DNA of 40,710 bases from Fuerstiella sp. (lineage in GTDB: Bacteria > Planctomycetota > Planctomycetia > Planctomycetales > Planctomycetaceae): NCBI GenBank assembly GCA_029247265.1, contig JAQWLN010000130.1, positions 1 to 40,710 on the forward strand, given 5' to 3'. The notes under the pieces are model-generated. The model searched no databases. It had not been told where the DNA came from and was given only the letters and a program-made list of their open reading frames with translations. The position numbers were made by a program, and so were the translations under genes. Shown here piece after piece: positions 10,201 to 37,941 of the stretch (its first letter is position 1; the number at the start of each line of letters is the position of its first letter).

Positions 10201-10208
10201 GCCAGCCC

Positions 10209-11528
10209 CTATGCAGTGAGCAGATCATACCAGCGTACGAGACTGTACTCGTATGAATCCATGACGGTGTTCCAGCGCGCAACGTTGCCAAGTCGTTCCA
10301 TGTACGATCCGCCTGTTCGGGTGCTGCCCGCTTCGACAGCTGTGCGCTGGTCCGCACCCGGAAGGTCTTTAGTGGCAACCTTCCCTTTGTACCAATAGTC
10401 CCATTCGGCATCGTCGAGATATTTACGTGTCCGGTCCGGGATTGAGATGTAATATCCCTGTGGAGCCATATAGGCTCCGGCCAATCCCTCAAGCCACCAG
10501 TTCATGTATTTGTAGGCAGCGTCACGCGCGTAGTCTGTCGTTTTCGAAGACAGGCAAAGAACTCCGTGCCAGCTTCGGTACCCCTCGCGTGGTGCGGCAT
10601 AAGTAACCGGAATGCCCATTCCATTGAGCGTCGAAACGGCGGGAGAAAACATACTCTCGATCACAACCCGCCCGGTCTTCATGAAATCAACGGACTGAGG
10701 CACAGAACTCCAGATGCCATTGAAATGGTCGCGACGTTTGTAGTCCAGCAGAACTTCAAACAGACTGTCAATTTCAGCCTTTGACAGATTGCCGATATCT
10801 TTGAACGACAACAGTCCCTGTGCCTGTGTGGCAAGCGCCGCGTCAAAAATGCCGATCGTTGGTTCATTTACCAGACCGACTCGGCCGCGATATCTGTCAT
10901 CCAGCAGCCAGCCCCAGCTTTCCGTTTCTTAGGGTTTGCCTTCAGGAATGATGGATGTGTTATAGCCAAAGGAATCGACATAGTGGACGTACGGAAGAAA
11001 ACTGATCTGGTCTGTTTCCTGGGGACCTAGGTTGCCATCCCGCTGAACATGTAGCAGTTTGTGAGGGGCGTCGCCGGCTCCGACGGACATACCCGGCGTC
11101 AAACGTCCCGTCTTGGAAAGGTCGTTGATCTCGCTTCATCTGGAAATGCGTGCCTTTTCAATTGGCTGAATCGCATTGGCCTGCCACAGCACGTTCATGC
11201 TGTTGGACCACTGTTCATAGACGTCAAATTCTTCGGGATGCGTCGAGGCCTTTTGCAGCACCCCCGCGCTTCCGTTCGGCTCGAACGAAATGCTTATGCC
11301 GAGTTCCTGTTATGCTCGGTGGCGGATGTCCTTCTGAAGTGTGACATCAGTACCGAGGACCCTCAGTGTGACACGCTGGGCGGCATGAACGGCAGGTGGC
11401 GACGAGAGCCACGCCGCTCCAACTGCGGCAGCGCCTTTCCCGATAAATTGCCTTCGGGAAGTCACCTCTTCAGTTTGATTCTTTTTGTCTTGTCCGGTTT
11501 GCCTCACGTCGCCTAGTCCTACTGACAC
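10209..11528 (-). pseudogene. Tat-exported ABC substrate-binding protein (PotD-like), three in-frame stops
   Basis: Read in one continuous frame, these 440 codons encode a full extracellular solute-binding protein of the spermidine/putrescine (PotD, COG0687) type. The N-terminus has a twin-arginine signal (TSRRQFIGKGAAAVGAAW), followed by VTLRVLGTDVTLQKDI. Typical blocks follow: QWSNSMNVLWQANAIQPI, ETDQISFLPYVHYVDSFGYN, VPQSVDFMKTGRVVIESMFS and a C-terminal YMNWWLEGLAG. Three stops interrupt it without any frameshift: TAA at 11310-11312, TGA at 11136-11138 (a likely Trp position) and TAA at 10929-10931 (a likely Tyr position, before ETESWGW). No permease or ATPase genes are nearby; the only partner is the hybrid kinase 8 bp downstream. 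The protein was therefore probably a sensor ligand-binding subunit and not part of an importer. It is presumably non-functional now, but recently so. Confidence 0.85.
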
Positions 11529-12464
11529 CTTGCCGACCGACGTGCCTCAGCAAACACGATGCTGGGCCACGTCTCACAATCAGACTGAAAACATTCTGCA
11601 ACATGCATTCAGTCTCGGAAAAATCAACGGACTCGACACGATCGGCCAACCGTCATAATGTGATAGCAAACAGCAGCGATCAGGCGTACGTTTGCTGACG
11701 CCCCGTTGACGCCCCGTTGACGCGACAGGAAACGCCCCTTCCACTTGTTAGATGCGTGGTCCCATCGTGGGAGCGCTGGAGCGGGACAATATCCGGAGCA
11801 CGCGGTGGCCCGATGATTGACATCTGATCTGCACCGGACCATTCTTTTAAGCCATCGCCGGACCGACGAGTATCGGCACTCAGCGATCGGCCGACTTTGT
11901 TCTCCAACGATTCCGCTGCGGCTGAATTACCGACGCTTGTCCTAACTGGCTGAAGCTCTCAGCTGCGTCCTTACCGCTAAGGCAGTGATAACCAGACGTC
12001 CCTGGAAGTGAAGTCTCGTAAGCCCTCAACGAACAGGAGTCCTGGCGGAGGTTCCTTCCATCAGAGCCGCGAAGTGCGAACGTTGACTGCAACGGCGCGG
12101 ATCCCGGACTCTATCTACGGAAGAGCTTAGCGCACGATCGGAACATTTCACGTTCGTCCGAAGTTCAACGAAAGGGCGGCATTCTGGAAAGAAATATTCC
12201 TGTGAACTCGCTACCATCGTCGAGTGAGCGGCGGTGGCATTCAGCCAATGCCTTTAATCATTCTGATGCCTGGCCCTTCTGGTAGCGACAGGGCCTGAAA
12301 GTCAGACACGAGTGACTGTCCGGGCAATACCATTTCTCAACGAGAAGTGAGTATCACCCCGACCGCAGTGTCAATTGCTTCCTCCCCGGTAGCGATGTGC
12401 AGCTGCGAAACACAATTCAATCACATCTTCCTTCAAACAGAGCCCGCGCAGCCAGGAGTATTAA
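11529..12464. other. Long intergenic region with short tandem repeat
   Basis: About 935 bp lie between two divergent units. I find no coding frame with family resemblance on either strand, and only short unsupported frames. An 11-bp direct repeat, TGACGCCCCGT, occurs twice in tandem plus a partial copy at 11696-11723. The region must hold the promoters of the leftward binding-protein/kinase pair and of the rightward oxidoreductase, but no consensus promoter is convincing by eye. Confidence 0.4.
11696..11723. repeat. 11-bp tandem direct repeat (2.5 copies)
   Basis: TGACGCCCCGT is present at 11696-11706 and again at 11707-11717, followed by TGACGC. It lies in non-coding DNA. It could be a binding site array or simple slippage; nothing else supports a function. 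Confidence 0.7.
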
Positions 12465-18135: not shown

Positions 18136-18363
18136 ACCCGTTTGAGGCGATTTGCTGTGTTCCGGACTTTTTGATTCGTCACGGCTGAACGTTGCCGCAG
18201 GAGAGGCGGCGATGCGACATAGCGCCTTGTCGGGCCGTGTTTCGACAGTAAAAACACTCAATAAACGGATTTGTCCGGAAAGGCTGTAACAAATTGGTTT
18301 TCTTCGCACTGAGGGTAAATAGTTCAATTAATTTACTACTCAACGCAAACTCAGGAGAACGCC

Positions 18364-19422
18364 ATGAAACGCTTCACCCAATCACTGTTTTTTGTGGCAG
18401 CCGTCTGTCTGGTTGCCGGAACGGATTCAACATTCGCCCAGTTTAAGTTCAATAAGGGCGGCAGCTCTCGCAGTTCCGTCTCTAAGGGGTTTTCAAACAG
18501 TTCGCGCAACTCGTTGTCACGAAATCCGGGTTCGTCAAACAGTTCTCGTAAGATCTCGTCCGGAACGATCAATAAGTTTCGGAAGTCACCTGCGACGAAC
18601 AACTCGAATCCAAGCAGCAAAGGCAGTGGCCGGTTTACGCTGGGAACGGGAAGGTCTCAGACAATTCGACGGAACACGAACACGGGCTCTTCGAAACTTT
18701 CCGGTAAATTCGGAAGTCAGCTTCTTCAGTCGAAGGTCGGATCCAATAAGCCGCTGCGAATCGGCGGCAGTGGACTGTCAAAGGTCTTACCACAGAATGG
18801 CAAACAGCCACAGCTTGGCGGATCACTCGGTAAGAAGCCTAACCTGTTGGGGTCAAAGTTTAACCATACGAAGTTCAAGACCCTGCCATTTACATCAAAC
18901 GGCATCAACAAGGGACTGCCCAAGTCCACGGTATCGAAGAACGGCAAGAAATGGTGGCACGATGCGGTACACCACATCATCAGCCACAACCAGCATCACT
19001 GGTGTCATACTCGACCGACTTCATGTCACTGGTGGACGCAGTACTGTCAGCCGATCACCCACTGTCATCACAACGACGTGGTGATCTGTGACTGGAACCG
19101 AGTTCACTGCAGCACAGTGCTGCACGTCGGAGCTCCCGCACAGAACGTTCAGTGGTACCTGGGTATGAAGGGGATTCTGCTGCCAGGCAAGGGATTGGGA
19201 ATTGACGCAGTCGAGCCTGGTTCTCCTGCAGAACTGGTTGGTCTTCAGCCCGGTATGGTCATGACAGTGTGTAACGGTATCCTGCTTGTTGACGAAGCGT
19301 CCATGCAGGAAGCCATCTGGAGTTCCGGAGGAATTCTTCAGATGACACTTTTGTCTGCAGACGGCAGTCAGGTACTGGAAGGCACTGTTCGAATGACACG
19401 AGTTGCCGCAGTGGCGTTCTAA
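18364..19422 (+). CDS. Secreted Ser/Asn-rich protein with His/Cys-rich centre and C-terminal PDZ domain
   Basis: The ATG follows a strong ribosome site (CAGGAG). The 352-residue product has a signal peptide cleaved near STFA-QFKF. Residues 30-195 are low complexity, rich in Ser, Asn, Gly and Lys, and basic. Residues 195-250 are packed with His, Trp and Cys (KKWWHDAVHH, NQHHWCHTRP, SCHWWTQYC, ITHCHHND, ICDWNRVHCS), which looks like a metal-binding or disulfide-rich module. Residues about 257-345 form a PDZ domain (GKGLGIDAVEPGSPAELVG, LQPGMVMTVCNGILL). No protease domain is attached. It is probably an exported adaptor that binds a metal and a protein C-terminus. I do not recognise the full architecture by name. 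It stands alone and ends at a terminator hairpin. Confidence 0.8.
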   Translation: MKRFTQSLFFVAAVCLVAGTDSTFAQFKFNKGGSSRSSVSKGFSNSSRNSLSRNPGSSNSSRKISSGTINKFRKSPATNNSNPSSKGSGRFTLGTGRSQTIRRNTNTGSSKLSGKFGSQLLQSKVGSNKPLRIGGSGLSKVLPQNGKQPQLGGSLGKKPNLLGSKFNHTKFKTLPFTSNGINKGLPKSTVSKNGKKWWHDAVHHIISHNQHHWCHTRPTSCHWWTQYCQPITHCHHNDVVICDWNRVHCSTVLHVGAPAQNVQWYLGMKGILLPGKGLGIDAVEPGSPAELVGLQPGMVMTVCNGILLVDEASMQEAIWSSGGILQMTLLSADGSQVLEGTVRMTRVAAVAF

Positions 19423-19467
19423 AACGGAGAGTGGCATCATCCACGTCGGTTTACAGCAATCCTTTGC

Positions 19468-19497
19468 CCCGGTCTCGTAAAGAGGCCGGGTCTCTTT
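19468..19497 (+). terminator. Rho-independent terminator after the PDZ gene
   Basis: CCCGGTCTC (19468-19476) pairs with GAGGCCGGG (19482-19490) through nine base pairs including one G-U, closing a five-base loop. It is followed by the T-rich TCTCTTT. It lies 45 bp past the PDZ gene stop and just before the opposing fragment at 19512, so it can end the plus-strand transcript. Confidence 0.75.
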
Positions 19498-19511
19498 ATG
19501 CGCCCATTGAG

Positions 19512-20003
19512 TCAGACAACAAAGTACGATTCATCGGCACTCCACGGACTGCGACGAAGCTGGATGTTGTTCAGTCCCAGCGCTTCATGGACGGCAACGG
19601 TTTCTCCCGGAAATACGGCGTGGTTAAGCTCGTCAAACCCAACGACGGAACCTTTCGTCAGCCGGCTGCCCAGCATTTCCAGGCAGTCTTTTGTGGGCTG
19701 GTAGAGGTCGAGATCAGCCGTCAGACGCAGCAGTTCCATCCCGGGAATGCGGGCCATATTTGTCTGGTACTGAGCGTAGTTGCGATGGTTGGTCCAGATC
19801 ACCTCGTCAAAAGATTCAAAGGAAGTCAATCCGGCAGCAGCTGAGATCTCGCTCATTTTTCCGTTCGTGCCAAGGCCACCGACTTCTGTCAGTCCGGTGA
19901 TGCCGAAATTTCGCATTTGCCTGCAGCGTTCCGCCAGTTCGTCGTTATTGGTGGTGATGGCTCCGCCTTCAATCGATTACAGAACTTTGGTGGCGTGGAA
20001 GCT
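19512..20003 (-). pseudogene. 3' half of DegT/DnrJ aminotransferase fused to a methyltransferase tail
   Basis: Read leftward from the breakpoint at about 20003, the frame gives SFHATKVL, a TAA at 19977-19979, then SIEGGAITTNNDELAERCR, RNFGITG and GTNGKMSEISAAAGL. This is the region right after the PLP-binding Lys of DegT/DnrJ/EryC1/StrS sugar aminotransferases. The Lys of HATK is the cofactor residue. Near 19725 the match switches abruptly to the C-terminal end of a TylF/cephalosporin-hydroxylase-like class I methyltransferase (LYQPTKDCLEMLGSRLTKG, VGFDELNHAVFPGE). A deletion probably joined the two. The aminotransferase 5' half is on the opposite strand at 22545-23127. An ATG at 19916 leaves 134 codons open, but a working protein is unlikely. 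Confidence 0.8.
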
Positions 20004-20004
20004 G

Positions 20005-20466
20005 AAGGGTGCCCCGCATTACATTGAGACGATGGAGTTTCTGGGCGAAACGCTGGCCTACGACAGCGAATCGCTGATGGACACCATCGTCCACCGCCTT
20101 TGTTGCTGCTGTGAGTACATCCAGCTGGATTTTCGCTACGAAACGTTTTTCAGTACCGATCTGTTGCTGCCCGAAATAAGCGCGCCAGGCCAGTGGGCAC
20201 TGGAAACGGCCAGAGCACTTGAGGCGACCAGCTACGTCAACCCTCCGGGTGGTCGACACATTTTCGATGCCGATGCATTTCAGACAGCCGGCGTGGATTT
20301 GACATTTCTGGAACCGGCACTGCCTGCGTATGATCAGAACAGCAAACAATTCGAAGCCGGCCTGTCGATTATTGACGTCCTGATGTGGAACGATGTGGCG
20401 ACTGTACGTGACATGATCGCCGACTATAAATTAACTGCTGCCGACAGGCACTTGTCTGCGGCCTGA
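20005..20466 (+). pseudogene. 3' half of a WbqC-family gene
   Basis: From the breakpoint the frame reads KGAPHYIETMEFLGETLAYD, then a helical stretch, then YVNPPGGRHIFDADAFQTAG, FLEPALPAYDQ and LSIIDVLMWND. That is the C-terminal two-thirds of the WbqC family, found in O-antigen and surface-glycan clusters. The family's N-terminal opening is missing here; it lies on the minus strand at 23126-23404. The frame is open upstream to 19780, but that part is antisense to aminotransferase sequence and not WbqC-like. It ends 10 bp before the next gene. Confidence 0.8.
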
Positions 20467-20476
20467 GTCATCACGA

Positions 20477-20755
20477 ATGCCCAAATTCGAAATCGAATCC
20501 GACGCCGAAGCGTACTGTTTCCTGAAGGCTTCACTGACACCGATCTACACGGTCACGTTGTTGCCGCGGTCAGATTATTTTGCGCAATGGCAGTATCACT
20601 ACCAGGTCAGTTCAGGACACGAACTACTGCATGAACTGCGTGGTGACTTCCGCACAATTCTGCCCGGTTCGCTGGCGGCACAGGCCGTCCGAATCGTAGG
20701 TTCTCTTAAGGCTCCGCCGGAACCCGGCGAATCCACGAAGGCGACGGGGCAATGA
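20477..20755 (+). CDS. Small conserved-looking protein of unknown function in glycan cluster
   Basis: This 92-residue acidic-start protein (MPKFEIESDAEAYCFLKASL) has no domain that I recognise, no signal peptide and no membrane segment. It starts 10 bp after the WbqC 3' half and its stop overlaps the start of the next gene by four bases (ATGA at 20752-20755). It was therefore translated as part of the same operon. A glycan-related role rests on context alone. Confidence 0.6.
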   Translation: MPKFEIESDAEAYCFLKASLTPIYTVTLLPRSDYFAQWQYHYQVSSGHELLHELRGDFRTILPGSLAAQAVRIVGSLKAPPEPGESTKATGQ

Positions 20756-21747
20756 TTATCGCGAATCGTCTTCCGCCTCAGCACACTGCAACGACATGGT
20801 TCTCTCCAGGACGAGCGGCGTTTGCCTTCCTGGTCAAGAATGTTGCCTGCCCAACCACGGTCTATCTGCCGTCGTTCGTGTGCTGGTCGCTGATTGACAC
20901 AATGCAACAACGATTACCGGACGTGAAAATGCGATTCTATCCGGTGCATCCTGATTTGACTTGCCAATACCCTGAGCAAGCCGAATCAGACTCCGCGTGC
21001 GTCTACATCCATTATTTCGGTCACATGAAAGACGCCTCCGAAATTCCGCCAGACCTGACGCTACTGGAGGACCATTCACACCTTCCATTGCAGACGAATC
21101 CGCCGTCTCACATCAACGACCGGGTCCGGCACATCTTCGGCAGCCTGAGGAAAGCCTACCGTGTGGCCGACGGCGGGTTTCTGGATGGATTCCACAATCC
21201 TGTCTACGTGGCTGACCGAAATCTGCCCGCCTGGCTTCGACATGAAGCCGACGATTGGCGGGACATGCGAGAGGCGGAGAACATGACCGACCGCAGCTGG
21301 ACAATGTCTGATATTTCAAGCCAGGCACTGGCGGTCATTCTGCAAACCGATGTCTCCGCGATGCGTACCCAGCGACAACTGAATGATCGCGTTCTGGTCC
21401 GGAATTTTCCCGTCGGACGCCCCCTGATTGACTATTCGGAAAACGAGTGCCCGTTGCTGCACAACCGACTGTGTTCTTCGCGTGAGGAGCGAGATTCACT
21501 ACGAGCCTTCCTCGCCGAACGGGGTGTTTACGCGTCGATACACTGGCCAGTCCACGATTACCTTTTGCAGCGTCGCGATTCCATTGACTGCGAAGACGCC
21601 ATCTGGCTCCAGGAGCATATCCTGTCGCTTCCGATCGCAGAATGTCTGGGATTGGCACAGATGGAAACGATCTGCAAGGCAGCCTGCCAATGGAAAGCGG
21701 CCGGAGGACAGCAATTCGGATCAGCGGCAGATCAACACGACGGCTGA
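20752..21747 (+). CDS. Diverged DegT-like PLP-dependent aminotransferase fold protein
   Basis: The 331-residue protein overlaps the preceding gene at ATGA. The segment HIFGSLRKAYRVADGGFLDG resembles the loop of the DegT/aminotransferase fold where Ser-x-x-Lys holds PLP and is followed by Asp-Gly-Gly. Before it, LTLLEDHSHLPLQ corresponds to the strand carrying the PLP-contacting Asp and His/Gln. The C-terminal third (ERDSLRAFLAERGVYASIHWPVHDYL) matches the small domain of the fold, with a His-Trp-Pro substrate loop. The N-terminal large-domain core is shorter than usual for DegT (about 370 residues). It may aminate a sugar or be a relative with altered chemistry. The frame is undamaged and lies entirely inside the inverted segment. 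Confidence 0.65.
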   Translation: MIIANRLPPQHTATTWFSPGRAAFAFLVKNVACPTTVYLPSFVCWSLIDTMQQRLPDVKMRFYPVHPDLTCQYPEQAESDSACVYIHYFGHMKDASEIPPDLTLLEDHSHLPLQTNPPSHINDRVRHIFGSLRKAYRVADGGFLDGFHNPVYVADRNLPAWLRHEADDWRDMREAENMTDRSWTMSDISSQALAVILQTDVSAMRTQRQLNDRVLVRNFPVGRPLIDYSENECPLLHNRLCSSREERDSLRAFLAERGVYASIHWPVHDYLLQRRDSIDCEDAIWLQEHILSLPIAECLGLAQMETICKAACQWKAAGGQQFGSAADQHDG

Positions 21748-21897
21748 CTCAACAGCAGAATTGTCCCCCCGTCTGGCCAATGTGCAATTACCCCCAGCCC
21801 AACAGAAAAGAAGGTCCGGCCGCTCCGCAGCGTCGATCTTTAACATAAGTATGGCCGGCACCATAATCACGTTTATCGGTCGTTTCTGGAATGTTCT

Positions 21898-22548
21898 GTG
21901 ACTTCACGCCTGGGAATTAAACTCAGATCCGCAGTCGAAGAACACCGTTCCGGCAATCTGGCGGCGGCGCTCAAGGTGTACGATGGGGTCCTTGCTGTGT
22001 CGCCAGACCATGCCGACGCTCTCCACCTGAAAGGACTGGTCGCGTTCCAGACGGGTGTCAGCGATGAAGCCGAAGCGTCGATCCGTCGCGCCATCGAGCT
22101 TCGCCCCGGGGAGGTCGAGTTTCGGGCCAATCTTGCATCAGTGCTGCTCCGTCAGGACCGAATTGACGAGGCCGAACAGACAAGTACTGTAGGAATGGCA
22201 GATTTCGTCACATTGAAGGATGTTATCTTTCATGTGAATGGAACCGGTTGGCGTCAGACCCTCGAAAATCGCGGGCCGTTGCCTAATCATCGTACCGCAC
22301 ATGCTTTCCTGACAGGAGAGTTGACGTCAATCTCAGACAATGGACAGACGCCGTCCAAGTGCGACTGGTCTCCGGTTTCCTTCAACCCAACCGTCAGCAG
22401 GAACTTCTTCATCCCCTCGGAAGGCACGTCCATACACACTGCCAGCAGTGCCCGAATGACGCCGGGCAAAGCAAAAGTGTGGATCCGCACAGACGACGCC
22501 ACGCACGGCATTGTCCCTGAGGTAACGGAACGCGAGACGGCGCCATGA
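21898..22548 (+). CDS. TPR-repeat protein, probably C-terminally scrambled
   Basis: The frame has a GTG start after a 150-bp gap and encodes 216 residues. Residues 1-100 are about two and a half tetratricopeptide repeats (NLAAALKVYDGVLAVSPDHA, DEAEASIRRAIELRPGEVEF, ANLASVLLRQDRIDEAEQ). After EQTSTVGMADF the sequence loses all TPR character and resembles nothing I know up to ERETAP. In intact planctomycete clusters such TPR N-termini often continue into a glycosyl- or methyltransferase, so an internal deletion is likely. The stop overlaps the start of the next gene (ATGA at 22545-22548), indicating former translational coupling. Protein-binding by the TPR part is the only function that can be supported. 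Confidence 0.55.
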   Translation: MTSRLGIKLRSAVEEHRSGNLAAALKVYDGVLAVSPDHADALHLKGLVAFQTGVSDEAEASIRRAIELRPGEVEFRANLASVLLRQDRIDEAEQTSTVGMADFVTLKDVIFHVNGTGWRQTLENRGPLPNHRTAHAFLTGELTSISDNGQTPSKCDWSPVSFNPTVSRNFFIPSEGTSIHTASSARMTPGKAKVWIRTDDATHGIVPEVTERETAP

Positions 22549-23127
22549 AACAACACGTAAAAGACCTGGCCGTCTTTGGTGGTTCAATACTGTTTGAGAA
22601 GCCTCTCGCTGTCGGACGCCCGAATGCGCTCGACAGAGACGACTTTCTGCGACGAATATCGGACGTCCTTGACAGCGGACAGCTGACTAACGATGGCCCC
22701 CAGGTGAAATCGTTTGAGGAAATGGTTCGTCGCGTCACTGGAACTCGACACGCCATTGCCGTTTGTAACGGAACGATGGCCCTGCAGATCATGGCGATGG
22801 CCTGCGAACTCAGCGGCGAGGTCATTGTGCCGGCTATGACATTTATTGGCACCGCGCATGCCCTGACATGGGTTCGGTTGAAACCGATATTCGCTGATGT
22901 CGAGCGAAACACGCATACGCTGGACGTCAATTCCGTCGAAGCATGTATCACGCCGCGTACGTCAGCAATTCTTGGAGTTCACCTTTGGGGCAATCCATGC
23001 GATGTTGACCGATTGCGCAGCGTCGCACGCAGCCATGGTCTGCCGTGGCTGTTCGATGCCAGTCACGCGTTCGGCTGCAAATTGCGTGGCGTGCCTGTCG
23101 GTGGCCGGGGCGATGCAGAAGCATTCA
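22545..23127 (+). pseudogene. 5' half of DegT/DnrJ sugar aminotransferase
   Basis: Codons 1-194 are a clear DegT/DnrJ/EryC1/StrS N-terminus: RRISDVLDSGQLTNDGPQVKSFE, the cofactor phosphate loop GTRHAIAVCNGTMALQIMAMA, PAMTFIGTAHAL, a strand ending PIFADVE, and WLFDASHAFGCKLRG, whose Asp contacts the PLP pyridine nitrogen. After GRGDAEAF at 23126 the expected SFHATK is missing. The frame runs on for 53 unrelated codons to 23285, antisense to WbqC sequence. The missing part is on the minus strand at 19725-20003. The intact enzyme would transfer an amino group to a nucleotide-linked keto-sugar for surface glycan. Confidence 0.85.
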
Positions 23128-23404
23128 AGCCGTACACGTCCAGACTATCCAACAGGCGCTTGCGCCACATTTCCGTCGGGTGGACTCGAACACCGGAAAT
23201 GGGCGTGGACCGCTCACACTGGGCGATCGGTACGCGAACGTATTTCCATGCGGTTTGCCCCGCCGACAGCACTCGATTTCGGTAGACCCATCCGCGTCGA
23301 ATGTACTGAGGAGTGTCAAATACTACCCAGCGGTCGGTGGCGTGGATCAGCCCAAAGTAGCCGAGATATGCGAAGAAGTACGGCTGCATCATGCCGAGTC
23401 GCAT
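23126..23404 (-). pseudogene. 5' half of a WbqC-family gene
   Basis: Reading leftward from the ATG at 23404, the product starts MRLGMMQPYFFAYLGYFGLI and continues with DRWVVFDTPQYIRRGWVYRN and WRKRLLDSLDVYGL. This is the diagnostic N-terminus of the WbqC family (MQPYFFPYLGY and QYIRRGW blocks). After 93 codons the match stops at the inversion breakpoint. The frame then runs antisense to the aminotransferase until 23063. The C-terminal part is on the plus strand at 20005-20466. This ATG would have been the first gene of the original leftward operon, divergent from the NtrC-type regulator. Confidence 0.82.
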
Positions 23405-23935
23405 TTGTTCAGCCCCGCGTTATGTTGAAGTCGAGCGTATTACTGCGTCTCAGAATTTCATCGGCGCGTTACGCTGAACGACCGTGGTCGTGCACATGGG
23501 CAAATAATGAAATGGGGGAAAACGCGAAGTCTGACGATGCTCCAGAAACATATCTGTCTGGAAAATTCTGTCGCGAAGTCGTTCGTTTTCAGCAGACTGC
23601 GGATCGGTGCAATCTGCGTGATACGGAAAGGCTGATGTTAAAGTGTACGATTTGTGACGACCGTAAGGATTTTTCTGATACGGGATCTTGCGATGATGTG
23701 GCCGCACCATATGTTGCCCCCAAATCGCGCCTGATGGATTTTTGCATCGTAAGTTCACATATCCCTTCTCATTGACCCGGTACGCTGGGTGCATTTGTTG
23801 TTCAACGGTGTTCGGACACAACCCCTTGACGACTAAATGCATCTTTGTCCCCGGGATGCGCTCCCAATCATCACTTGAAATTACGCATGACACGCTGCGT
23901 CTGTCACTTGCATTGGGAATTCTGAGGGGAAAAAT
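23405..23935. other. Divergent intergenic region, possible small ORF
   Basis: This 530-bp gap separates the WbqC 5' end (leftward) from the NtrC-type gene (rightward) and should contain both promoters. A plus-strand frame from an ATG near 23511 to about 23775 is open for about 87 codons and contains CTICDD and several other Cys residues. It has no recognisable family and no clear ribosome site. I leave it uncalled as a gene. Confidence 0.35.
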
Positions 23936-25336
23936 ATGGCTTCTGATACATCGGGTTCGTTGCTGGTCGTTGACGACGATCGACACATCCAAAATGCCAT
24001 GGCGGATTATCTCCGCAGTCTTGGCCACCGCACAGAAACGGCTTCGACCCACGGGGAAGCTGTTGAACGGATGCAGGAGTTTCCGTTCGAAGTTGTCGTC
24101 TGCGACGTCAATCTTCCTGATAAAGACGGCTTTGAGTTGTTGCAGTGGACACGAGAGAACACGCCGGATACCGCCGTTATCCTGCTCACCGGATTTGGCA
24201 CGATCGAGAGTGCGGTCGAAGCCATCCGGATGGGGGCCTTCGACTATCTGACGAAACCCGTCATCGACGAAGAGTTGAACCTGTCGATTGAGCGAGCGAT
24301 CAACCAGCGTCAGATTCTGCAGGAAAATCTGCAGCTCAAAGCTCAGTTGAACGAAAAGCACGGTCTGTCAAACATCATCGGCAAAGACTACAAAATGCTG
24401 CGGATGTTCGAACTGATCGAAAGTGTGGCCGACACGCGGACTACGGTGCTGATTCTTGGTGAGAGTGGTACCGGGAAAACGATGACCGCTCGGAGCATTC
24501 ATCAGCTCAGTAATCGAGCAGACAAACCGTTCGTGGAAGTGGCCTGTGGTTCGTTGCCCGAAACGCTTCTAGAGACGGAACTGTTTGGACACGTTGCCGG
24601 GGCATTCACGGGGGCGACTCATGATAAAATCGGAAAGTTTCTGCAGGCTGACGGCGGCACTTTGTTTCTGGATGAAATTGCCACTGCCTCGCCTCAGTTA
24701 CAGGTCAAGCTGCTGAGAGTTCTGCAGGAACGGGAGTTTGAAGCTGTCGGAGGCAACCAGACTCACAAAGTTGATGTGCGTCTGGTGCTGGCCACAAACC
24801 AGGACCTTGAAGAAGCCGTGCGTCGAGGTGAGTTCCGCGAGGATTTGTATTACCGAATCAACGTCATTACGCTCACCCAGCCCTGTCTGCGCGAGCGACT
24901 GGGTGACATTCCGCTGCTGTTGGACCACTATCTGAAACAGTTCAACATGCAGACCGGTCGTACCATCGAAGGTGTTGACGACATGGCGATGCACGCACTG
25001 CAGCAATACCAATGGCCCGGAAATGTGCGTGAACTGGTTAACGTTATTGAGCGTGCAGTCGTCTTGTGCAAAGGTGACCGTATCGGTGCTGGTGATCTGC
25101 CAGAGAATCTGTTCGCTGAAAATGACCAACAGGCGAATGTTGAGGCACAGCTCGGCGGGGCATCATTAAAGAAGGCGTTGACGACTCCGGAACGACAGCT
25201 GATTGTGCAGGCTCTGGAATCGAACGGCTGGAATCGTCAGAACACGGCGAAGTCGTTGGGAATCAACCGCACCACGCTGTACAAGAAGATGAAGAAATAC
25301 GATATCGACTTCGAGACCGTATACAAACACGCATAG
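23936..25336 (+). CDS. NtrC-family sigma-54-dependent response regulator
   Basis: The 466-residue protein has all three NtrC domains. The receiver spans about 1-120 (DDD at 13-15, phospho-acceptor Asp57 in [11 protein letters not shown], Thr85, Lys107). The AAA+ domain spans about 147-380 (Walker A GESGTGKT at 175-182, GAFTGA at 222-227 for sigma-54 contact, Walker B LFLDE near 243-247, arginine-finger region [10 protein letters not shown]). A Fis-type helix-turn-helix lies at about 420-455 ([20 protein letters not shown]). It would activate sigma-54 promoters after phosphorylation. No cognate kinase is adjacent; the hybrid kinase at 7792 is 14 kb away and carries its own receiver. The ATG follows GAGGGG. 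A terminator lies 75 bp downstream. Confidence 0.95.
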
Positions 25337-25412
25337 ACGATGCTATAGCCTCAAGAGGCATTGAGTAAGTGACCCCGATGCGAATGGATTCGTCGTAGTC
25401 TCTACTCCTCCA

Positions 25413-25445
25413 ACAGCCACCTGGACGCCGCGGGTGGCTGTTTTC
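25413..25445 (+). terminator. Rho-independent terminator after the NtrC-type gene
   Basis: ACAGCCACC (25413-25421) and GGTGGCTGT (25433-25441) form a perfect 9-bp stem around an 11-base loop, followed by TTTT. Placed about 75 bp after the regulator's stop codon, it isolates that gene from the next. Confidence 0.8.
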
Positions 25446-25666
25446 GTGGGAGATCAGTATACCGTTTTCCGCGAAGGTTCCGCAGTCCCGTCGCATTTGG
25501 CACGGAGCGTTTCACACGCAGCAGACATGAACGTTTGCAACTACAGCTTTTCGTTGGGGCGCGTGGAGACGGGAATTGTTTTCCGAATGTTCGATGGATA
25601 GACTAACAATGTGCACGACGTGCCGTACGCCTTTGATATTCCGTTTCTGCCAAAGATTATTGAACG

Positions 25667-25891
25667 ATGCCGCTGTTTGAGTTTGTCTGCGAGGATTGCC
25701 AGAGTGAATTTGAGCTGCTCGTGGGACACCGCGAGAAAGTACATTGCCCGGAATGCAGCTCGGTCAGACTGGAAAAACTGATGAGTACTTCTGCTGGTCG
25801 GATGGCGTCCGGCGCGGCTCTTCCTGTGGTTAACGGCTGCCCGCCTGCAGAAATGGGCCCGTGCAAGCCAAACTGCTGCCGACTTCCCTGA
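25667..25891 (+). CDS. FmdB-family zinc ribbon protein with Cys-rich tail
   Basis: This 74-residue protein begins MPLFEFVCEDC, the signature of FmdB-type putative regulatory zinc ribbons. Two CxxC knuckles (Cys8/Cys11 and Cys27/Cys30) would bind one zinc ion. The family's role is unclear, though it has been linked to transcription of formamidase or amidase genes in some bacteria. Unusually, the C-terminus is again Cys-rich (GCPPAEMGPCKPNCCRLP), which could bind a second metal. The next gene follows after 27 bp on the same strand, so the two are likely co-transcribed. Confidence 0.8.
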   Translation: MPLFEFVCEDCQSEFELLVGHREKVHCPECSSVRLEKLMSTSAGRMASGAALPVVNGCPPAEMGPCKPNCCRLP

Positions 25892-25918
25892 CGCCGGACA
25901 GCCGGCGATCGTTGGTTC

Positions 25919-26884
25919 ATGAGCAATGCAATGCAATTTGAATCGGAAGCATTGCCACTGACGAATTCAGCGTGGAGTGCGGACTGGGCATCTGAATCTT
26001 CACGATTGATGCCGGTCTCGCAGACGCTTTCCGCAGTCTCCGCAGACCGCCGGTTGGGCAGCCTGCTGGTTCAGCAATTGCCGGATGACACGGTTGCGTT
26101 GTCAAATCTCAGTACTGAGCTGCAGCTTCCTGACGATGAACAGCACGATGTGCGAACATCGCTGTTGCAGCAGTCTGTATGGGTGTCGAAGGCAGTGTCG
26201 CCTCGTTATGTGCGTTATCTGGTCAGTGAAAGAGAGGCAGCTGTTATCAGAGCCTTGTCGGATGCTGGCTTTACTTGCGCGGGACAGGTCGAGGAGTGGA
26301 CAAAGGCGGAACATTCCGTGACTGCGGAATTCCACCTCCCGGTCGGGAGCGTTTGCTGCCGGGTTGAAGCTGTCGATGTCGCTGCACATTCATCATTGGA
26401 CTTCACATCATTGTTGTCGGAAGGCGGCGACGATTTGTCATTGCCGCACATCAGCATTCCGCGTGCGGTGCTATGCGGTCTGCTTGATGATTGCCTTCAG
26501 CATTCGAACGATTTGCCGATGCTGCCCCTGCCTGAGGCTGAACAGTTGTTGCGATTGTGGCGTCTGTCCCGATCGCAGGTTCGAATTTTTCTTGCCGTCC
26601 ATGAAGAGCAGCCCGCAGGACTCATGCTGACCAGCCTGGTCGATGACGGGCGTGTAGCGGGAACGTCGGACGTTGTGATTGAATACATCGGTGTGGGATT
26701 CAATGCGCGACGTAAAGGAATTGCCGCGGGGATGCTGTCACTGCTGTGTTCCGACGTCTGCGGCAGGCATCAGTCGCCAAAGCTGACGGCGTTTGCAGGA
26801 GCTGATAACGAGGCGGCCGCGTGTCTGTACCGGAGGGGTGGGTTTGCACCTGGTGGCCGCTTGTGGGTGTGGATTGCATCCTGA
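25919..26884 (+). CDS. GNAT-family N-acetyltransferase
   Basis: The 321-residue protein has a GNAT acetyl-CoA fold in its C-terminal half (about 190-321). The segments include QVRIFLAVHEEQPAGLML, VIEYIGVGFNARRKGIAAGML with the RRKGIA pyrophosphate-binding loop, and the closing ADNEAAACLYRRGGF. The N-terminal half (1-180) is a diverged second domain with PVSQTLSAVS and a region resembling an extra GNAT-like sheet, but without a recognisable CoA loop. The acetyl acceptor cannot be read from the sequence. It sits 27 bp after the zinc-ribbon gene. Confidence 0.8.
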   Translation: MSNAMQFESEALPLTNSAWSADWASESSRLMPVSQTLSAVSADRRLGSLLVQQLPDDTVALSNLSTELQLPDDEQHDVRTSLLQQSVWVSKAVSPRYVRYLVSEREAAVIRALSDAGFTCAGQVEEWTKAEHSVTAEFHLPVGSVCCRVEAVDVAAHSSLDFTSLLSEGGDDLSLPHISIPRAVLCGLLDDCLQHSNDLPMLPLPEAEQLLRLWRLSRSQVRIFLAVHEEQPAGLMLTSLVDDGRVAGTSDVVIEYIGVGFNARRKGIAAGMLSLLCSDVCGRHQSPKLTAFAGADNEAAACLYRRGGFAPGGRLWVWIAS

Positions 26885-27036
26885 ACATTGCGCATCCGGT
26901 CAGGGCGCTGGGATACCTCACAAATTGTTGAGGAATATTCGATTCCACCGGCAAGAACACAGCCCTTCATTCGATAGCAGATTCGCAAGTTTCTCCAATA
27001 CCGGACCTCCATTGCGGCTCCACGTCAGGTGTATTC

Positions 27037-28158
27037 ATGAGTGTCGTGGACCTGTTCAATCAAATTCCTGAGAACGATTTTGGATTCTTTCAGCAGGTCC
27101 GCACCGTCGCAGACGTGATGACCAAGGCTCCGCACTGTCTGACGCCGGCCGACACATTCGAAGCAGCGACGGAACTGCAGAGGAAGGGACGATTTCACAC
27201 TGCTCCGGTACTGAACCCGGACGATCAGGCGGTTGTCGGAATTGTGTCAGACCGTGATCTTCTGCGACATCGACCTCGTACACTTGGCAAGGCCGGGGAA
27301 GGCGACGACGATCATCGACGACTGAAAGACGGCGTCGCTATGTTTATGACTCGCAAGCCTGTCTGGTGCAGCAGTGATCGCTCTCCGGTGAAAGCCATGA
27401 CACTGATGCTGGATAACCACGTCGACAGTGTTCTGGTATCGACCGATGGCACCACGCTGGACGGTATCGTAACGCCTCGAAACATCATCAAGACGCTGCT
27501 GCTTTATCATCACGTCTGCACACGCGATTTCGATCTGCGGCGGCTTCGTCTCGTCGATCTCGATCTGAGGAACGGTATCCCTTTGGACGAGGTGTTTTCT
27601 CGCGGAGCACAGACCGTACGAGACGTGATGACAAAGGAGGCCGTGACGATTCAGAGCGACGACCTGTTGTCGTCCGCGATCGCTTGCATGCAGGAACAGG
27701 AGATCCGTCACCTGCCGGTGGTGAATAAAGAAAATGTAGTCGTCGGAATGCTTTCGGATCGAGAAATATTGAAGTGTCTGCCGCCGCCGGAACTACGGTC
27801 AGGCGAGCCCGAGAAAAGCTTCAGGGAAGTGCTATTTGCCACCAACGACAAAGAGACACTGCATTTGCCGGTGCACTCCGTTATGTGTGAACAGGCCTCG
27901 TCCGTCAATCCCGACGTGCTGCTGACTGATGCCCTGGCAATACTGAACGGCACGACGGTCAGCGGACTGTCTGTGGTGAATGCGGAGACTCATCAGTTGT
28001 GCGGAATCCTCACAACGTCAGATATTCTGCGGGTGTTTGGCGTCGTAATGCAGATCGGCGTGCTTTCAGAACCGCCTGTCGTGTTGGAAGAAGCCGAGTC
28101 CGCAGCGGAATCCGAGCCTGTCGTTGAAAACGAGTCTGCAGTTGAAGCTGCTGTATAG
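27037..28158 (+). CDS. Four-CBS-domain protein
   Basis: The 373-residue cytoplasmic protein is made of two Bateman modules. CBS motifs begin at about residues 22 (TVADVMTKAPHCLTPADTFE), 100 (VAMFMTRKPVWCSS), 190 (TVRDVMTKEAVTIQSDDLLS) and 280 (VHSVMCEQASSVNPD). Each is followed by the GIVSDRDLL-type strand that binds the ribose of an adenosine ligand; the first and third have it best conserved (GIVSDRDLL, GMLSDREIL). No catalytic domain is attached. The C-terminus is an acidic Glu/Val/Ala-rich tail. It probably senses adenine nucleotides or a related ligand and acts on an unknown partner. It ends 35 bp from the convergent SDR gene. Confidence 0.9.
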   Translation: MSVVDLFNQIPENDFGFFQQVRTVADVMTKAPHCLTPADTFEAATELQRKGRFHTAPVLNPDDQAVVGIVSDRDLLRHRPRTLGKAGEGDDDHRRLKDGVAMFMTRKPVWCSSDRSPVKAMTLMLDNHVDSVLVSTDGTTLDGIVTPRNIIKTLLLYHHVCTRDFDLRRLRLVDLDLRNGIPLDEVFSRGAQTVRDVMTKEAVTIQSDDLLSSAIACMQEQEIRHLPVVNKENVVVGMLSDREILKCLPPPELRSGEPEKSFREVLFATNDKETLHLPVHSVMCEQASSVNPDVLLTDALAILNGTTVSGLSVVNAETHQLCGILTTSDILRVFGVVMQIGVLSEPPVVLEEAESAAESEPVVENESAVEAAV

Positions 28159-28193
28159 CGCAGACGGCTGTGACCACAAAGGTTCCTGGCAAC

Positions 28194-28985
28194 TCACGAA
28201 TGCATCACGTAGCCGCCGTCGACGTTGATCGTCTGTCCCGTCACCTGCGATGCTCGCGCGGATGACAGAAATACGATCATGTCCGCCACATCTTCCGGTT
28301 GTTGCCAGCGTCCCAGCGGTACCAGCTGTCGAATTTTCTCCGCGGCCCATTCGTCGTAGTCAAGCTGTTGCTCTGGCGTCTGCCGATCATTCCAGGACTT
28401 CCATACGCTTTTGTTAAGCGGTGTCTTGACCATTCCCGGGCACACGGTGTTTACGCGGACACCACTGGATGCGAGATCCTTCGCCATCACCTGAGCAAAA
28501 TTGATGTTGGCCGCTTTTGAGGCACTGTACGGAGGATCCGTGGGCGAACCAATCTGCCCGGCCACCGATGCCACGAACACCATCGTGCCTTCGCAACGAT
28601 CGACCATGCCCGGTGCAATCGCGTGAGCCACGTTGACCATGCCCGAGATGTTTACGTCCAGAACTCTGGCCCAGTCGGACGGTTGCAGGCAGGTAAATGG
28701 AAATCCGAGTTTGCCCGACCCGATGGCCGCGGCATGGACGACATGCTGAATCGGCCCAATTCGCAGTTCGGTTGCCTCGACGGCAGACCGAACTGCCGAC
28801 TCATCCGCAATATCAACAGACCTGCCTTCGGCAGCGCCCCGTTCTGTCACAGACTCCACGTCTGAAGAGATGTCCCAGACAGCAACCCCGGCGCCTTCAC
28901 GAACAAATGCGTCGACGCACGCTTTCCCGATGCCGCTGGCGCCGCCAACCACCACAACGGAAGATTCCTTAAGTCGTAATTCCAC
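28194..28985 (-). CDS. Short-chain dehydrogenase/reductase (SDR)
   Basis: The 263-residue classical SDR has the cofactor loop VVVGGASGIG (residues 11-20), the Asp38 region favouring NAD, HAAAIGSGK in place of NNAG, and the catalytic triad Ser140, Tyr153 and Lys157 (YSASK). The C-terminus shows GRWQQPEDVADMIVFLSS and TGQTINVDGGYVM, as in FabG-like and sugar or cyclitol dehydrogenases. It is cytoplasmic, complete and apparently a single-gene unit; the substrate is unknown. Confidence 0.9.
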   Translation of the reverse strand: MELRLKESSVVVVGGASGIGKACVDAFVREGAGVAVWDISSDVESVTERGAAEGRSVDIADESAVRSAVEATELRIGPIQHVVHAAAIGSGKLGFPFTCLQPSDWARVLDVNISGMVNVAHAIAPGMVDRCEGTMVFVASVAGQIGSPTDPPYSASKAANINFAQVMAKDLASSGVRVNTVCPGMVKTPLNKSVWKSWNDRQTPEQQLDYDEWAAEKIRQLVPLGRWQQPEDVADMIVFLSSARASQVTGQTINVDGGYVMHS

Positions 28986-29109
28986 AAATATTCTCTCTTG
29001 GATCTAAAGCCACGTCAGTGATCACGTCGTGGTCGACGACTGTGTGCCGCACCCGTGTCTGCCGTCAGAGTTGAATGGAGGTGATGTTCCGTAGAGCAGC
29101 GGTGTCTGA

Positions 29110-30516
29110 TCAGGCGACGATGTCGTCGATCACTCGCCCGTGAACGTCCGTGAGTCGATAGTCGCGGCCGGAATAGCGATAGGTCAACCTGGTGTGATCA
29201 AGACCCATCTGATGCAGGATCGTCGCGTGCAGGTCATGTACATGCATGCGATTTTCAACGGCGTGCATTCCAAATTCGTCGGTGGCGCCGTAGGTCGTGC
29301 CGCCCTTGATGCCGCCCCCGGCAAGGAACATAGAAAATCCGGTGTTGTGATGGTCCCGGCCGGCCTTCCTGGGGTCGCCGCTCTTGTCTTTTTGGGCATA
29401 CGGCGTGCGACCGAACTCGCCTCCCCAGACAATAAGCGTATCGTCCAGCATCCCCCGCTGCTTCAGGTCCCTGATCAATGCGGCAGATGCTCTATCGCTG
29501 TCTGCACACAGTTGCTGATGCTTGCTGTTGTTATTGTTGTGAGTATCCCACGGTTGCTTTTGACCTTTGTTGACGTAGTAGACCTGGAGAAAACGAACGC
29601 CGCGTTCCGCAAGTCGACGGGCCATCAGACAACTTCGTCCGAAGACGGTGTCTCCGTAGTCTGCTTGCGTCTGCTGCGTTTCGAGGGCCACGTCGAAGGC
29701 TTCCTCTGCTGCGCTCTGCATGCGAAAGGCCATTTCCATAGTTCGAATGTTCGCCTCCAGAGATTCCTCATTCTGTCGTTTGTTCGCATGACGGCGATTC
29801 AGAAAATGCAGCAGGTCCAGCTGCTCACGTTGTTGAGTGCGCGTCAGCGACGGATTGCGAATGTTGGTCACCAGCTTGTTGACGTCCGGCTCGTTGGTGT
29901 CGACAGCGGTACCCTGATGCTGGCCCGGCAGGAATGCGTTAGACCACAGCTGTGGGCCAACAACAGGACGGCCCGGAGACAATGCCACAAAGGCCGGCAG
30001 GTTTTCGTTCTCACTGCCCAGGCCATATGAGGCCCAGGAACCCAGACTGGGACGCACCGGCTGAGGATGGCCCGAATGCATGATCAACAGACCGGGTTCA
30101 TGATTTGGTTCATCGGTATGCATCGAACGCAATACGCACAGATCATCAGCCACTTCACTCAGCTTTGGCAGCAACTCACTCATCACGACACCGCTGTCAC
30201 CGTGCGGTCGAAACCTGAACGGCGAGGACATATAGCCGCTGCCTTTGGACGGGCGTTCCAATTTGCTCGTGGGCTGCTGGCCTTCGTACTTTTGCAAATC
30301 CGGCTTCGGGTCGAATGTGTCCACGTGCGACGGCGCACCATTCATGAACAGAAAGATGACTCTCTTGGCCCGCGCCGGAAAATGGTGCCCGGTTTGTAGG
30401 GCAGGTTCCGCGGCAGAATCTGCACCCAACAATCCACGGGCGGCCAGCCAGCCGAAGCCAGCGCCCGCTGACTGAAGCAATTGGCGCCGAGGCATGTGTG
30501 TTGCAGGGAACATCAA
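29110..30516 (-). CDS. DUF1501 secreted sulfatase-like protein (Tat substrate)
   Basis: The 468-residue protein has a twin-arginine type leader (MPRRQLLQSAGAGFGWLAA; this Met is at 30495, and an upstream ATG at 30516 is also possible). It shows the DUF1501 core: KRVIFLFMNGAPSHVDTFDPKPD, LRSMHTDEPNHEPG, QVYYVNKGQKQPWDTHNNN, IVWGGEFGRTPYAQ, GRDHHNTGFSMFLAGGGIKGG, and a C-terminal HDLHATILHQMGLDH. DUF1501 proteins share the alkaline-phosphatase/sulfatase fold with metal-binding His and Asp residues. In planctomycetes they are usually encoded directly after a DUF1549/DUF1553 cytochrome gene. Here the upstream 500 bp have none, so this copy is orphaned. Confidence 0.9.
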   Translation of the reverse strand: MMFPATHMPRRQLLQSAGAGFGWLAARGLLGADSAAEPALQTGHHFPARAKRVIFLFMNGAPSHVDTFDPKPDLQKYEGQQPTSKLERPSKGSGYMSSPFRFRPHGDSGVVMSELLPKLSEVADDLCVLRSMHTDEPNHEPGLLIMHSGHPQPVRPSLGSWASYGLGSENENLPAFVALSPGRPVVGPQLWSNAFLPGQHQGTAVDTNEPDVNKLVTNIRNPSLTRTQQREQLDLLHFLNRRHANKRQNEESLEANIRTMEMAFRMQSAAEEAFDVALETQQTQADYGDTVFGRSCLMARRLAERGVRFLQVYYVNKGQKQPWDTHNNNNSKHQQLCADSDRASAALIRDLKQRGMLDDTLIVWGGEFGRTPYAQKDKSGDPRKAGRDHHNTGFSMFLAGGGIKGGTTYGATDEFGMHAVENRMHVHDLHATILHQMGLDHTRLTYRYSGRDYRLTDVHGRVIDDIVA

Positions 30517-31012
30517 TGGATCTCCGGTGGGTGGATCGAAGGAGGAATGTGCGGACGGTCAGATTAACACATTCGCGTTTCGGATGCCCGCCAATTTTAC
30601 GTCGAACCGGTTCGACAGAGGCAACGCCGGTCTAGGGATCGCCCGGTCCGGCAAACTCTTCGGAAATGCACAGTCTCCCGGCAATGTCCGAGCTGCCTGT
30701 CCGTGAGACGTGTGTTGTATGGAATGACCATTGAAGGAGCGGCGTGACGCCCTCAGTGGGACGTGCCGGAGCATTGTTGATTTGGTGTCAAAGCGATGGC
30801 GCCGTTGTCGGCAGAGCGACAGTTGGACGCGTCTCTGTGCTCTCAGTCTCAGGGTATAAGTTGCCATGGATTCCCAACTTGTGTTCATTTGCGCGCATTG
30901 GTACACGGTTGGCGTGAATGAGTCTGGGGCCTGGTGCAAGCGTTATGAACTTGTTTCAGTCAGCCTTCTGATCTTTCTCAACAGCTTTCACGCTGAAACA
31001 GGAGCATGAACC
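30517..31012. other. Divergent intergenic region
   Basis: These 496 bp contain the divergent promoters of the DUF1501 gene and the small secreted-protein gene. No DUF1553-type partner, RNA gene or clear repeat is visible. Confidence 0.4.
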
Positions 31013-31657
31013 ATGACGATTCAAAAAACTGTTTTCTACGGCATTGCCGGTCTGCTGATCGTGCCAGTCGCCAGTGCTCAATACTGCGCACGAGCACAAA
31101 CTGTCTACGCACAACCGTTGTATCATCAATATCACCACCTTTCCTATCGATTGCCCTATCTCAATTACACCGCAGTTCATCATCCGCAAACTGTTGAAGC
31201 ACCACCGAGCCCGGCAGCCGTTTCGTTTGGAGGGTTCCCGCATGTGGATGAACTGGCCGCGCGACTCGAAGTACTGATGAACCAGATATGCCTGGATCTC
31301 TATTACAACTACTCCCTCAACCCCGACTTTCACGCAACTTATACGGAGGCCTACAGCCTGTACCAAACGACTCGATACATCCATGCGGCAGAGCACAACT
31401 ATGATCGCGAGACCGTTCGTCAGCGACTGGGCGGCGCCGACGCGCTGTTTCATCACATCCGGGACGACGTTCGTGGGTGGCATCGCGTTTCCAGGCGTCA
31501 GAATGGACCACTGGGTATCGTCGCAAAACTTGAAATGGCTGAGGAAACACTGCATCATCTGATGGAAGACGTGGGGGTGTCCGTGAGTCCCGGTCTGGAA
31601 GAGCCGCCGGTTCCGAAGAATCTGCCCGTCGTTCCTGCACCGCTGACGTTGGAGTAG
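31013..31657 (+). CDS. Secreted hypothetical protein
   Basis: The ATG follows a good ribosome site (ACAGGAG). The 214-residue product has a signal peptide ([20 protein letters not shown], cleavage near ASA-QY), a Tyr/His-rich linker ([17 protein letters not shown]) and a helical domain (about 75-185) with regularly spaced His residues. I recognise no named family. Planctomycetes carry many such small exported helical proteins. It stands alone, 212 bp before the radical SAM start. Confidence 0.7.
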
Positions 31658-31869
31658 CGAACAGTGGTCAGGTTGGCGAGTGTGGCCGGGGGTGGAACGG
31701 GAAACCAGTGAAACTCCGGGGCTGGCAGCGCGGGTTTGCTTTTTGTTCTTCGCAAGCTCAGTCCAGCTCCGGCCGGCGACCTCACGTTCGTAGCGCCGCG
31801 ACTTTGCTGGACATTCGGGTATACTTCGGATCGTTCCATTTCCGCACCGTCCGTACGTACCGTCACAGC

Positions 31870-33435
31870 ATGCCCGACATCGTCCTGGCAACGCTTAATG
31901 CTCGTTACTGGCATTCGTCGTTTGGCCTGCGCTATCTGATGGCGAATATGGGAGAGCTGACACCGGCGACGGTGATTCAGGAATTCGGAATCAATGATCG
32001 TCCGGTGGACATGATCTCGACCATCCTGGCGGCTGAACCACGCATCGTGGGGATCGGAGTCTACATCTGGAACGTCGAAGCGGCGACTCACCTCGTGGCA
32101 GATCTGAAGCAGGTGCGGCCGGATATCTGCGTGGTGCTGGGTGGCCCGGAAGTGAGCTACGAGACGGAAATACAGTCGATTGTCGGGTTGGTCGACTACG
32201 TCATTACGGGCGAAGCGGATCTTGAATTTCCCGCTTTGTGCAGACGCTTGCTCGCTCAACCGTCTGAGTCGCGATTGGATGTGCACGACAGTTCCGTTGG
32301 CGTGAATGAGTTCTGTCGTCCGCAGATTATTCGCGCTGCCGTTCCGTCTCTTGACGAAATCCGAATGCCCTACGATCTGTACACGGATGAGGATATTGCG
32401 CATCGCGTGATCTATGTCGAAGTGTCCCGAGGCTGTCCCTTCACGTGTGAGTTCTGTCTTTCAGCGCTGGACATTCCGGTACGGCTGTTCGACGTGGAGG
32501 AATTTCTGAATGCGATGCAGTCGCTGCTGGATCGGGGAGTTCGCAGCTTCAAATTTGTGGACCGTACCTTCAATCTGAACATGCGCGTCAGCCGCATGAT
32601 ACTGCAGTTCTTTCTTGGCCGCTGTGATCTGGGTCTCTTTCTTCATTTCGAAATGATTCCTGATCGTCTGCCGGATTCCCTGCGGCAGTTAATCGTTCAG
32701 TTTCCGCCGGGGGTACTTCAATTCGAAATTGGCGTGCAGACGTTCAATCCGGAAGTCGGCGAGCTGATCAGCCGACGGCAGGATAACGACAAACTGATTG
32801 ATAATTTTCACTTTCTGCGACAGGAATCGGGAGTTCATATTCACGCAGATCTGATTATTGGACTTCCCGGTGAGACCGTCGAGTCATTCGCCGCCGGATT
32901 CGATCGCCTGGTTGAGCTTAATCCTCAGGAGATTCAGGTTGGCATTCTGAAACGTCTGAAAGGGACTCCGATCATTCGGCACGACGCGGAATGGCAAATG
33001 GTGTACAGCGCTCAGCCACCGTTTGAAATTCTCAGCAACCGCCTGATCGAGTTTGAGACGATGCACCGCTTGCGCCGCTTCGCCAGATTCTGGGACCTTA
33101 TCGCCAATAGTGGAAACTTTGTTCACAGCTGTCCGCTGATCTGGCAGGGGCGTGAGTCCGCCTTCGTCTGTTTTCTGGAATTGAGCGACTGGCTCTTTGA
33201 AGTGGAACAGCGATCATTCAATATCTCGCTGATACGATTGGCTGAGCGGATTTTTCAGAGTCTTTCAGGACATCAGCCGGAAGAGCACGTGGCGTCGACG
33301 ATCTGGCGCGACTACGTCAGCGCGGGGCGAAAAGACAAACCGCATTTTCTCCGTGGATTTGACCTGCCGCCACCACATGAAGTTGTCGCCGGGGAAAGAC
33401 ACCAACCATCCCGTCAGGCGCGTCACGAGCGTTGA
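31870..33435 (+). CDS. Radical SAM protein, DUF4080 type
   Basis: The frame is open from 31708, but homology starts at the ATG at 31870 ([20 protein letters not shown]), giving 521 residues. Residues 1-130 form a Rossmann-like B12-binding-type domain ([25 protein letters not shown]), but without the DxHxxG motif that holds cobalamin in true B12 enzymes. Residues 180-380 form the radical SAM barrel with [14 protein letters not shown], the three cluster cysteines being Cys189, Cys193 and Cys196. The C-terminal part is the DUF4080 helical domain. It would use a 4Fe-4S cluster and SAM to generate a radical; substrate unknown. It ends at a hairpin shared with the opposing gene. Confidence 0.88.
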
Positions 33436-33440
33436 CCGCA

Positions 33441-33465: not shown

Positions 33466-33471
33466 AATAGG

Positions 33472-37890: not shown

Positions 37891-37941
37891 CATGCAGTTG
37901 TACTCGGTGGATAAGGGAGATATTGATTCGGAACGACGCAT

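Follow-up and report, generated by a model that had tools for sequence, protein, structure and literature searches.

Four lesions, among them a lossless inversion, in a putative glycan gene cluster of a Fuerstiella genome

The 40,710-bp contig JAQWLN010000130.1 (C219) of a Fuerstiella genome (assembly GCA_029247265.1, here G000; 6.53 Mb in 280 contigs, 90.5% complete) was analyzed over its entire length, which we refer to as the window. The window carries the scattered pieces of a WbqC gene, a DegT/DnrJ/EryC1 aminotransferase gene and several of their neighbors. Comparison at the sequence level with G002, a metagenome-assembled genome of the same genus (locus contig JAQWOH010000018.1), has shown an inversion, two deletions of about 2 kb and a nonsense codon in the DegT gene. 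It is probable that a conserved cluster of eight genes on one strand was inactivated in this lineage through these lesions, by a lossless inversion and two deletions that would have arisen as separate illegitimate-recombination events in the cell, together with the DegT nonsense codon. A glycan role of the cluster is proposed from the families to which its genes belong. Among the titles listed in a literature search on the locus, none named it.

The ancestral arrangement is preserved in relatives. In a search of 58 genomes, comprising G000 and 57 relatives, G002 was the one same-genus genome carrying the whole locus. Its eight intact genes lie on one strand and encode WbqC (246 aa; PF08889), a small open reading frame (ORF), a 335-aa DegT-like protein, a 701-aa tetratricopeptide repeat (TPR)/GT41 glycosyltransferase, a 225-aa protein (PF25735 match), the DegT aminotransferase (PF01041), a sulfotransferase (PF13469) and a TylF-like methyltransferase, the last with a match under the Pfam cut-off. 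The window is collinear with G002 in five blocks, the middle two being inverted; in the order of the G002 contig these are 18239-19715 (+), 19712-20008 (+), 22178-23127 (-), 20002-22181 (-) and 23124-25336 (+). Orthologous blocks of parts of the cluster, each on one strand, were also found in G004 (contig C165) and, on two contigs, in G012, supporting the proposal of the initial annotation that the whole cluster ancestrally occupied one strand. The assembly of another relative, G001, breaks at both sides of the cluster and is uninformative there. The initial annotation had named the same split in relatives as evidence that would count against an inversion in this strain; WbqC matches were recovered from 21 of 120 family genomes (G000 among them), and two pieces on opposite strands occurred only in G000. 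Given the one-strand order in G002, G004 and G012 and a split WbqC confined to G000, the arrangement in the window is the derived one. The features of the locus are as follows.

19512..19712, minus strand: last 66 codons of the TylF-like methyltransferase, which deletion X has joined in frame to what remains of DegT
19712..19715, plus strand: GATC, joint of deletion X (about 1977 bp, by G002 28131 to 30108), from alignment to G002
19713..20002, minus strand: continuation of DegT, 96 codons with an in-frame TAA, from comparison with G002
20003..23127, no strand assigned: inverted block, shortened by an internal deletion (counterpart G002:C60:30399-35587); 20002-22181 and 22178-23127 both align on the minus strand, and the flanks 19712-20008 and 23124-25336 both on the plus strand
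20003..20006, plus strand: TGAA, left inversion joint, from the window sequence and alignment to both G002 partners
20005..20466, plus strand: C-terminal part of WbqC (152 codons compared, 68% aa identity to G002)
20477..20755, plus strand: intact small ORF of 92 aa without a Pfam match; its G002 counterpart lies between WbqC and the DegT-like gene
20752..21747, plus strand: intact 331-aa gene with a weak DegT/DnrJ family match (74% aa identity to G002)
21898..22179, plus strand: first 94 codons of the TPR/GT41 (OGT-like) glycosyltransferase (701 aa in G002)
22178..22181, plus strand: AGAC, joint of deletion Y (about 2060 bp, by G002 31345 to 33405), within the inverted block, from alignment to G002
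22180..22548, plus strand: last 122 codons of the gene after GT41 (225 aa in G002; Phage_L5_gp82), fused in frame to the GT41 fragment
22545..23126, plus strand: N-terminal 194 codons of the DegT/DnrJ/EryC1 aminotransferase, from comparison with G002
23124..23127, plus strand: TTCA, right inversion joint, the inverted copy of TGAA, from the window sequence and alignment to both G002 partners
23126..23404, minus strand: N-terminal part of WbqC (92 codons compared, 78% aa identity to G002)

Alignment to the G002 contig places window positions 20003-23127 in inverted orientation. The initial annotation, made from the window alone, had attributed the four fragments of WbqC and DegT to one inversion with TGAA/TTCA ends, and the fragments, their strands, their coordinates and these ends all agree with the ORF listing and the sequence. 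It had also suggested a comparison with the syntenic locus in related planctomycetes, in which the halves indeed match neighboring parts of single intact G002 genes. Because the halves adjoin one another in single G002 genes and the interval forms one inverted block, the observed inversion is far beyond chance. Reversal of the interval by script joined GDAEAF to SFHATKVL and DVYGL to KGAPHYIETM in frame, as had been predicted, and produced a normal WbqC of 246 residues, the length of the G002 protein, to which both halves align without gaps.

The further claim that flipping the interval restores both genes held for the reading frames at the joints and for the WbqC gene, but not for DegT. The reversal script and the comparison with G002 indicate that DegT stays dead after flipping, because a TAA stop (19977-19979; CAG, encoding Gln, in G002) directly follows SFHATKVL and the C-terminus has been deleted. 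In the same way, one inversion does explain the four fragments, but as the single event originally envisaged it is insufficient, two ~2-kb deletions and a nonsense codon being present as well. In G002 coordinates, by which the deletion sizes and missing stretches are given, the two deletions took away the C-terminal end of DegT, the sulfotransferase, and the greater part of both the methyltransferase and the GT41 glycosyltransferase. The DegT TAA, the cut in DegT after about 96 codons with its methyltransferase fusion, and the deletion joint at 22178-22181 were absent from the initial annotation. With several inactivating lesions on one side and an intact orthologous cluster in G002 on the other, the locus shows two of the features by which a pseudogene cluster is recognized.

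Each rearrangement joint overlaps by four bases: GATC at deletion X, TGAA/TTCA at the inversion and AGAC at deletion Y. The inversion overlap is exactly four bases, since the adjoining bases mismatch on both sides when the window is read alone (C-TGAA-T against T-TGAA-G), whereas for the deletions four is the best estimate because the relative used for comparison is 73-80% identical at the nucleotide level. Relative to G002, zero bases were lost or gained at either inversion end and the two joints are exactly reciprocal. When breakpoint pairs were drawn at random in the G002 locus (200,000 pairs), 1.8% had an overlap of at least four bases, giving a chance of 0.018 per joint and ~6e-6 for all three. 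We noticed no insertion sequence at any of the joints.

The joints bear on how the rearrangements were made. A programmed invertible switch (phase variation) toggling two glycan genes would agree with the finding that reversal of the segment reopens both frames across the joints, but we regard it as scarcely credible. The inverted homology at the block ends amounts to the 4 bp of TGAA/TTCA, flanked by mismatches, and not to well over 4 bp as an invertible switch needs. No inverted repeats lie at both inversion ends among the 24 pairs listed for 19000-24500, and no recombinase domain was detected in the 23 window proteins scanned with Pfam, the other window ORFs and the rest of the genome not being searched; the argument of the initial annotation that so short a homology speaks against a recombinase is thus upheld. 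In addition, DegT is dead even when flipped, and relatives keep one orientation. The presence of two ~2-kb deletions and a nonsense codon makes a reversible switch very unlikely, and we rejected it on the 4-bp ends, the scanned proteins and the unrestored DegT. A single replication-based template-switching event, similar to microhomology-mediated break-induced replication (MMBIR) or fork stalling and template switching (FoSTeS), could have generated the inversion together with the two deletions, in keeping with three rearrangements within 3.5 kb, all missing from G002 and all with 4-bp joints. However, nothing obliges template switching to return to the bases it left, whereas the inversion joints are exactly reciprocal and lossless, as from an excised-and-reversed segment, and the deletion joints lie ~290 and 950 bp from the inversion ends and not at them; we therefore consider such an event unlikely. 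Type II topoisomerases cut DNA with a 4-base stagger, and subunit exchange of gyrase or topoisomerase IV between two cleavage sites would yield lossless joints with exactly 4-bp matching overhangs, in accordance with the lossless inversion and the four bases of all three overlaps. Gyrase-mediated illegitimate recombination by subunit or interface exchange is discussed in PMC11164529. This exchange is a possible, if doubtful, source of the joints, and would be a mechanism within the decay of the cluster, not an alternative to it. Against it, the deletion overlaps read on the G002 comparison could have been five, slippage between short repeats gives identical joints, and RecA-independent deletions in Deinococcus use repeats of 4-11 bp (PMC8149714). 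For the deletions, slippage or alternative end joining is just as good an explanation. Only tentatively, then, would we trace all three rearrangements to type II topoisomerase end exchange, as a natural lossless inversion with 4-base overhangs and two sibling deletions; if true, the joints would provide a genomic signature for recognizing such events elsewhere.

The joints might instead be chimeric molecules or the result of strain mixing in a metagenome bin, a reading favored by the size of the contig (40.7 kb in a 280-contig, 90.5%-complete genome) and by the occurrence of the split in G000 only. A k-mer assembler would not be misled by overlaps as short as four bases, two base-exact reciprocal joints would need two matching chimeras, and the DegT stop and the deletions in the same genes fit genuine decay. 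As a control, we compared 3 of 14 fetched 20-kb stretches of G000 and window positions 23500-40710 with G001 and G002, and no intragenic inversion was seen in them among the best 40 candidates per genome; long collinear blocks dominate. An artefact is accordingly improbable in our judgment. Within the control, synteny did switch at the end of a gene in L067 (16304-16533) and again in L073 at ~3.1-4.5 kb, the latter holding a short gene fragment. Beyond window position 25336, G002 switches contig and G001 does not. Gene relics exist elsewhere in G000, and the scramble is local as far as sampled. By eye, the fragment L073:3121-3733, located at a synteny break with G002, resembles the C-terminus of an RND-type exporter, and the nearby stretch 3915-4207 is 91% identical to G002.

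Inactivation of the cluster in the cell by several separate steps would thus best describe the locus. The events may be taken as separate from one another and as cellular events, not products of assembly; independent chimeras are disfavored because both inversion joints are exactly reciprocal. The joining would have proceeded in three illegitimate steps at 4-bp homologies, independently of RecA and of Ku, and loss of the cluster, which appears to be decaying, would have been tolerated. The Ku domain PF02735 was found in none of nine genomes, by a search that matched 1 of 14 control genomes and with G000 90.5% complete, and on this result Ku-dependent end joining was set aside. RecA was detected in all four genomes searched, G000 included, and its absence was rejected as a cause.

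Substitution patterns were used to assess the age of the decay. The pairwise ratio of nonsynonymous to synonymous substitution rates (dN/dS) to G002 was 0.112 and 0.238 for the WbqC parts, 0.148 and 0.155 for the DegT parts, 0.108 for the GT41 part, 0.246 for the 225-aa gene part and 0.045 for the methyltransferase part. The undamaged 331-aa gene gave 0.102, and four genes in the flanks gave 0.018-0.142. The low ratios and the lack of frameshifts in the fragments suggest that most divergence predates the loss, and the bulk of the divergence from G002 seems, from these sequences, to be older than the loss of the genes. A relative-rate test with a first outgroup gave 48 amino acid changes on the window branch and 26 on the G002 branch (p = 0.014) over the seven broken fragments, of which those of the methyltransferase and GT41 were nearly without informative sites (0:0 and 1:0). 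The 331-aa gene and the flanking regulator were left out of this sum; the regulator gave 4 versus 5.

Several observations weigh against decay of the cluster. Both deletions leave in-frame fusions, an outcome expected by chance in 1 of 9 cases, which is probably coincidence; no frameshift was seen in the compared gene fragments; and fragment dN/dS values remain low (0.045-0.246). The low dN/dS, the missing frameshifts and the in-frame fusions could mean that the decay is recent or that some remnant is still in use. The lean of the relative-rate test toward faster change in the window, as relaxed selection would produce, is weak: a second outgroup, obtained for five of the seven broken fragments, gave 35 versus 27, and the intact 331-aa gene is equally skewed (27 versus 11; 19 versus 10). 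One TGA was counted inside the WbqC match in three of the 20 other genomes (G004, G075 and G138), and in G004 the ORF listing gives an open frame of 263 aa despite it. Finally, the scrambled locus is known from one genome alone, and the joints from the assembled contig alone.

We evaluated the possibility that copies elsewhere in G000 compensate for the broken genes. No second WbqC was found at E up to 0.001, and no close DegT copy, the nearest other matches showing 29-30% identity; a search for the sulfotransferase was empty but was made without a positive control. One near full-length GT41 paralogue was recovered at C136:25864-27924 (L078:7852-9921), 51% identical to the cluster GT41 of G002, and it carries one in-frame TAG at L078:8572, its terminal stop being TGA. 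A compensating copy was rejected on the missing WbqC, the missing close DegT and the TAG in the GT41 paralogue. No glycan genes were recognized by eye among the listed ORFs beside the paralogue, where no family scan was made. Both near relatives of the cluster GT41 found in G000 look broken.

Two further observations concern the genes themselves. The 225-aa protein of the G002 cluster (L017:12978-13655) matches the Pfam family Phage_L5_gp82 with an E value of 1.7e-10, an unexpected family in a glycan cluster. In the window, a solute-binding protein gene at 10209-~11475 on the minus strand contains three in-frame stops, TAA at 11310-11312, TGA at 11136-11138 and TAA at 10929-10931. This interrupted gene adjoins a histidine kinase and lies in a block of ~5 kb (7453-12436) that is missing from the same place in G001 and G002. 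The in-frame stops of the broken genes comprise all three kinds, with TAA in DegT, TAA and TGA in the solute-binding protein and TAG in the GT41 paralogue.

Biologically, the locus is a case of ordinary gene loss in which the inversion is one step. It offers a clean, polarized example of a conserved glycan cluster being lost from a bacterium, with the ancestral order kept in a relative, and it cautions that frames rejoined at inversion joints, as in DegT, need not mean a restored gene. In PMC8149714, joints in Deinococcus recA mutants likewise fall at exact repeats of a mere 4-11 bp, with the sequence unchanged at the joints; unlike here, that study reports deletions but no further large rearrangement, shorter ones being able to escape its screen, and G000 has a RecA gene. 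In gyrase-mediated illegitimate recombination, as treated in PMC11164529, end exchange between two cleavage complexes would similarly give homology-poor joints, whereas the mechanism here is read from the shape of the joints only.

Invertible DNA switches likewise reverse a segment and swap gene halves, but the present locus has no useful inverted repeats, no recombinase among the scanned proteins and a DegT that flipping does not restore. Polysaccharide or O-antigen type clusters become pseudogenized in single lineages, and here too a multi-gene glycan locus was lost in one lineage via rearrangement, deletion and nonsense mutation. Unlike those clusters, and with no insertion sequence noticed at its joints, this locus contains a small inversion that is demonstrably without base loss and rests on four bases of homology.

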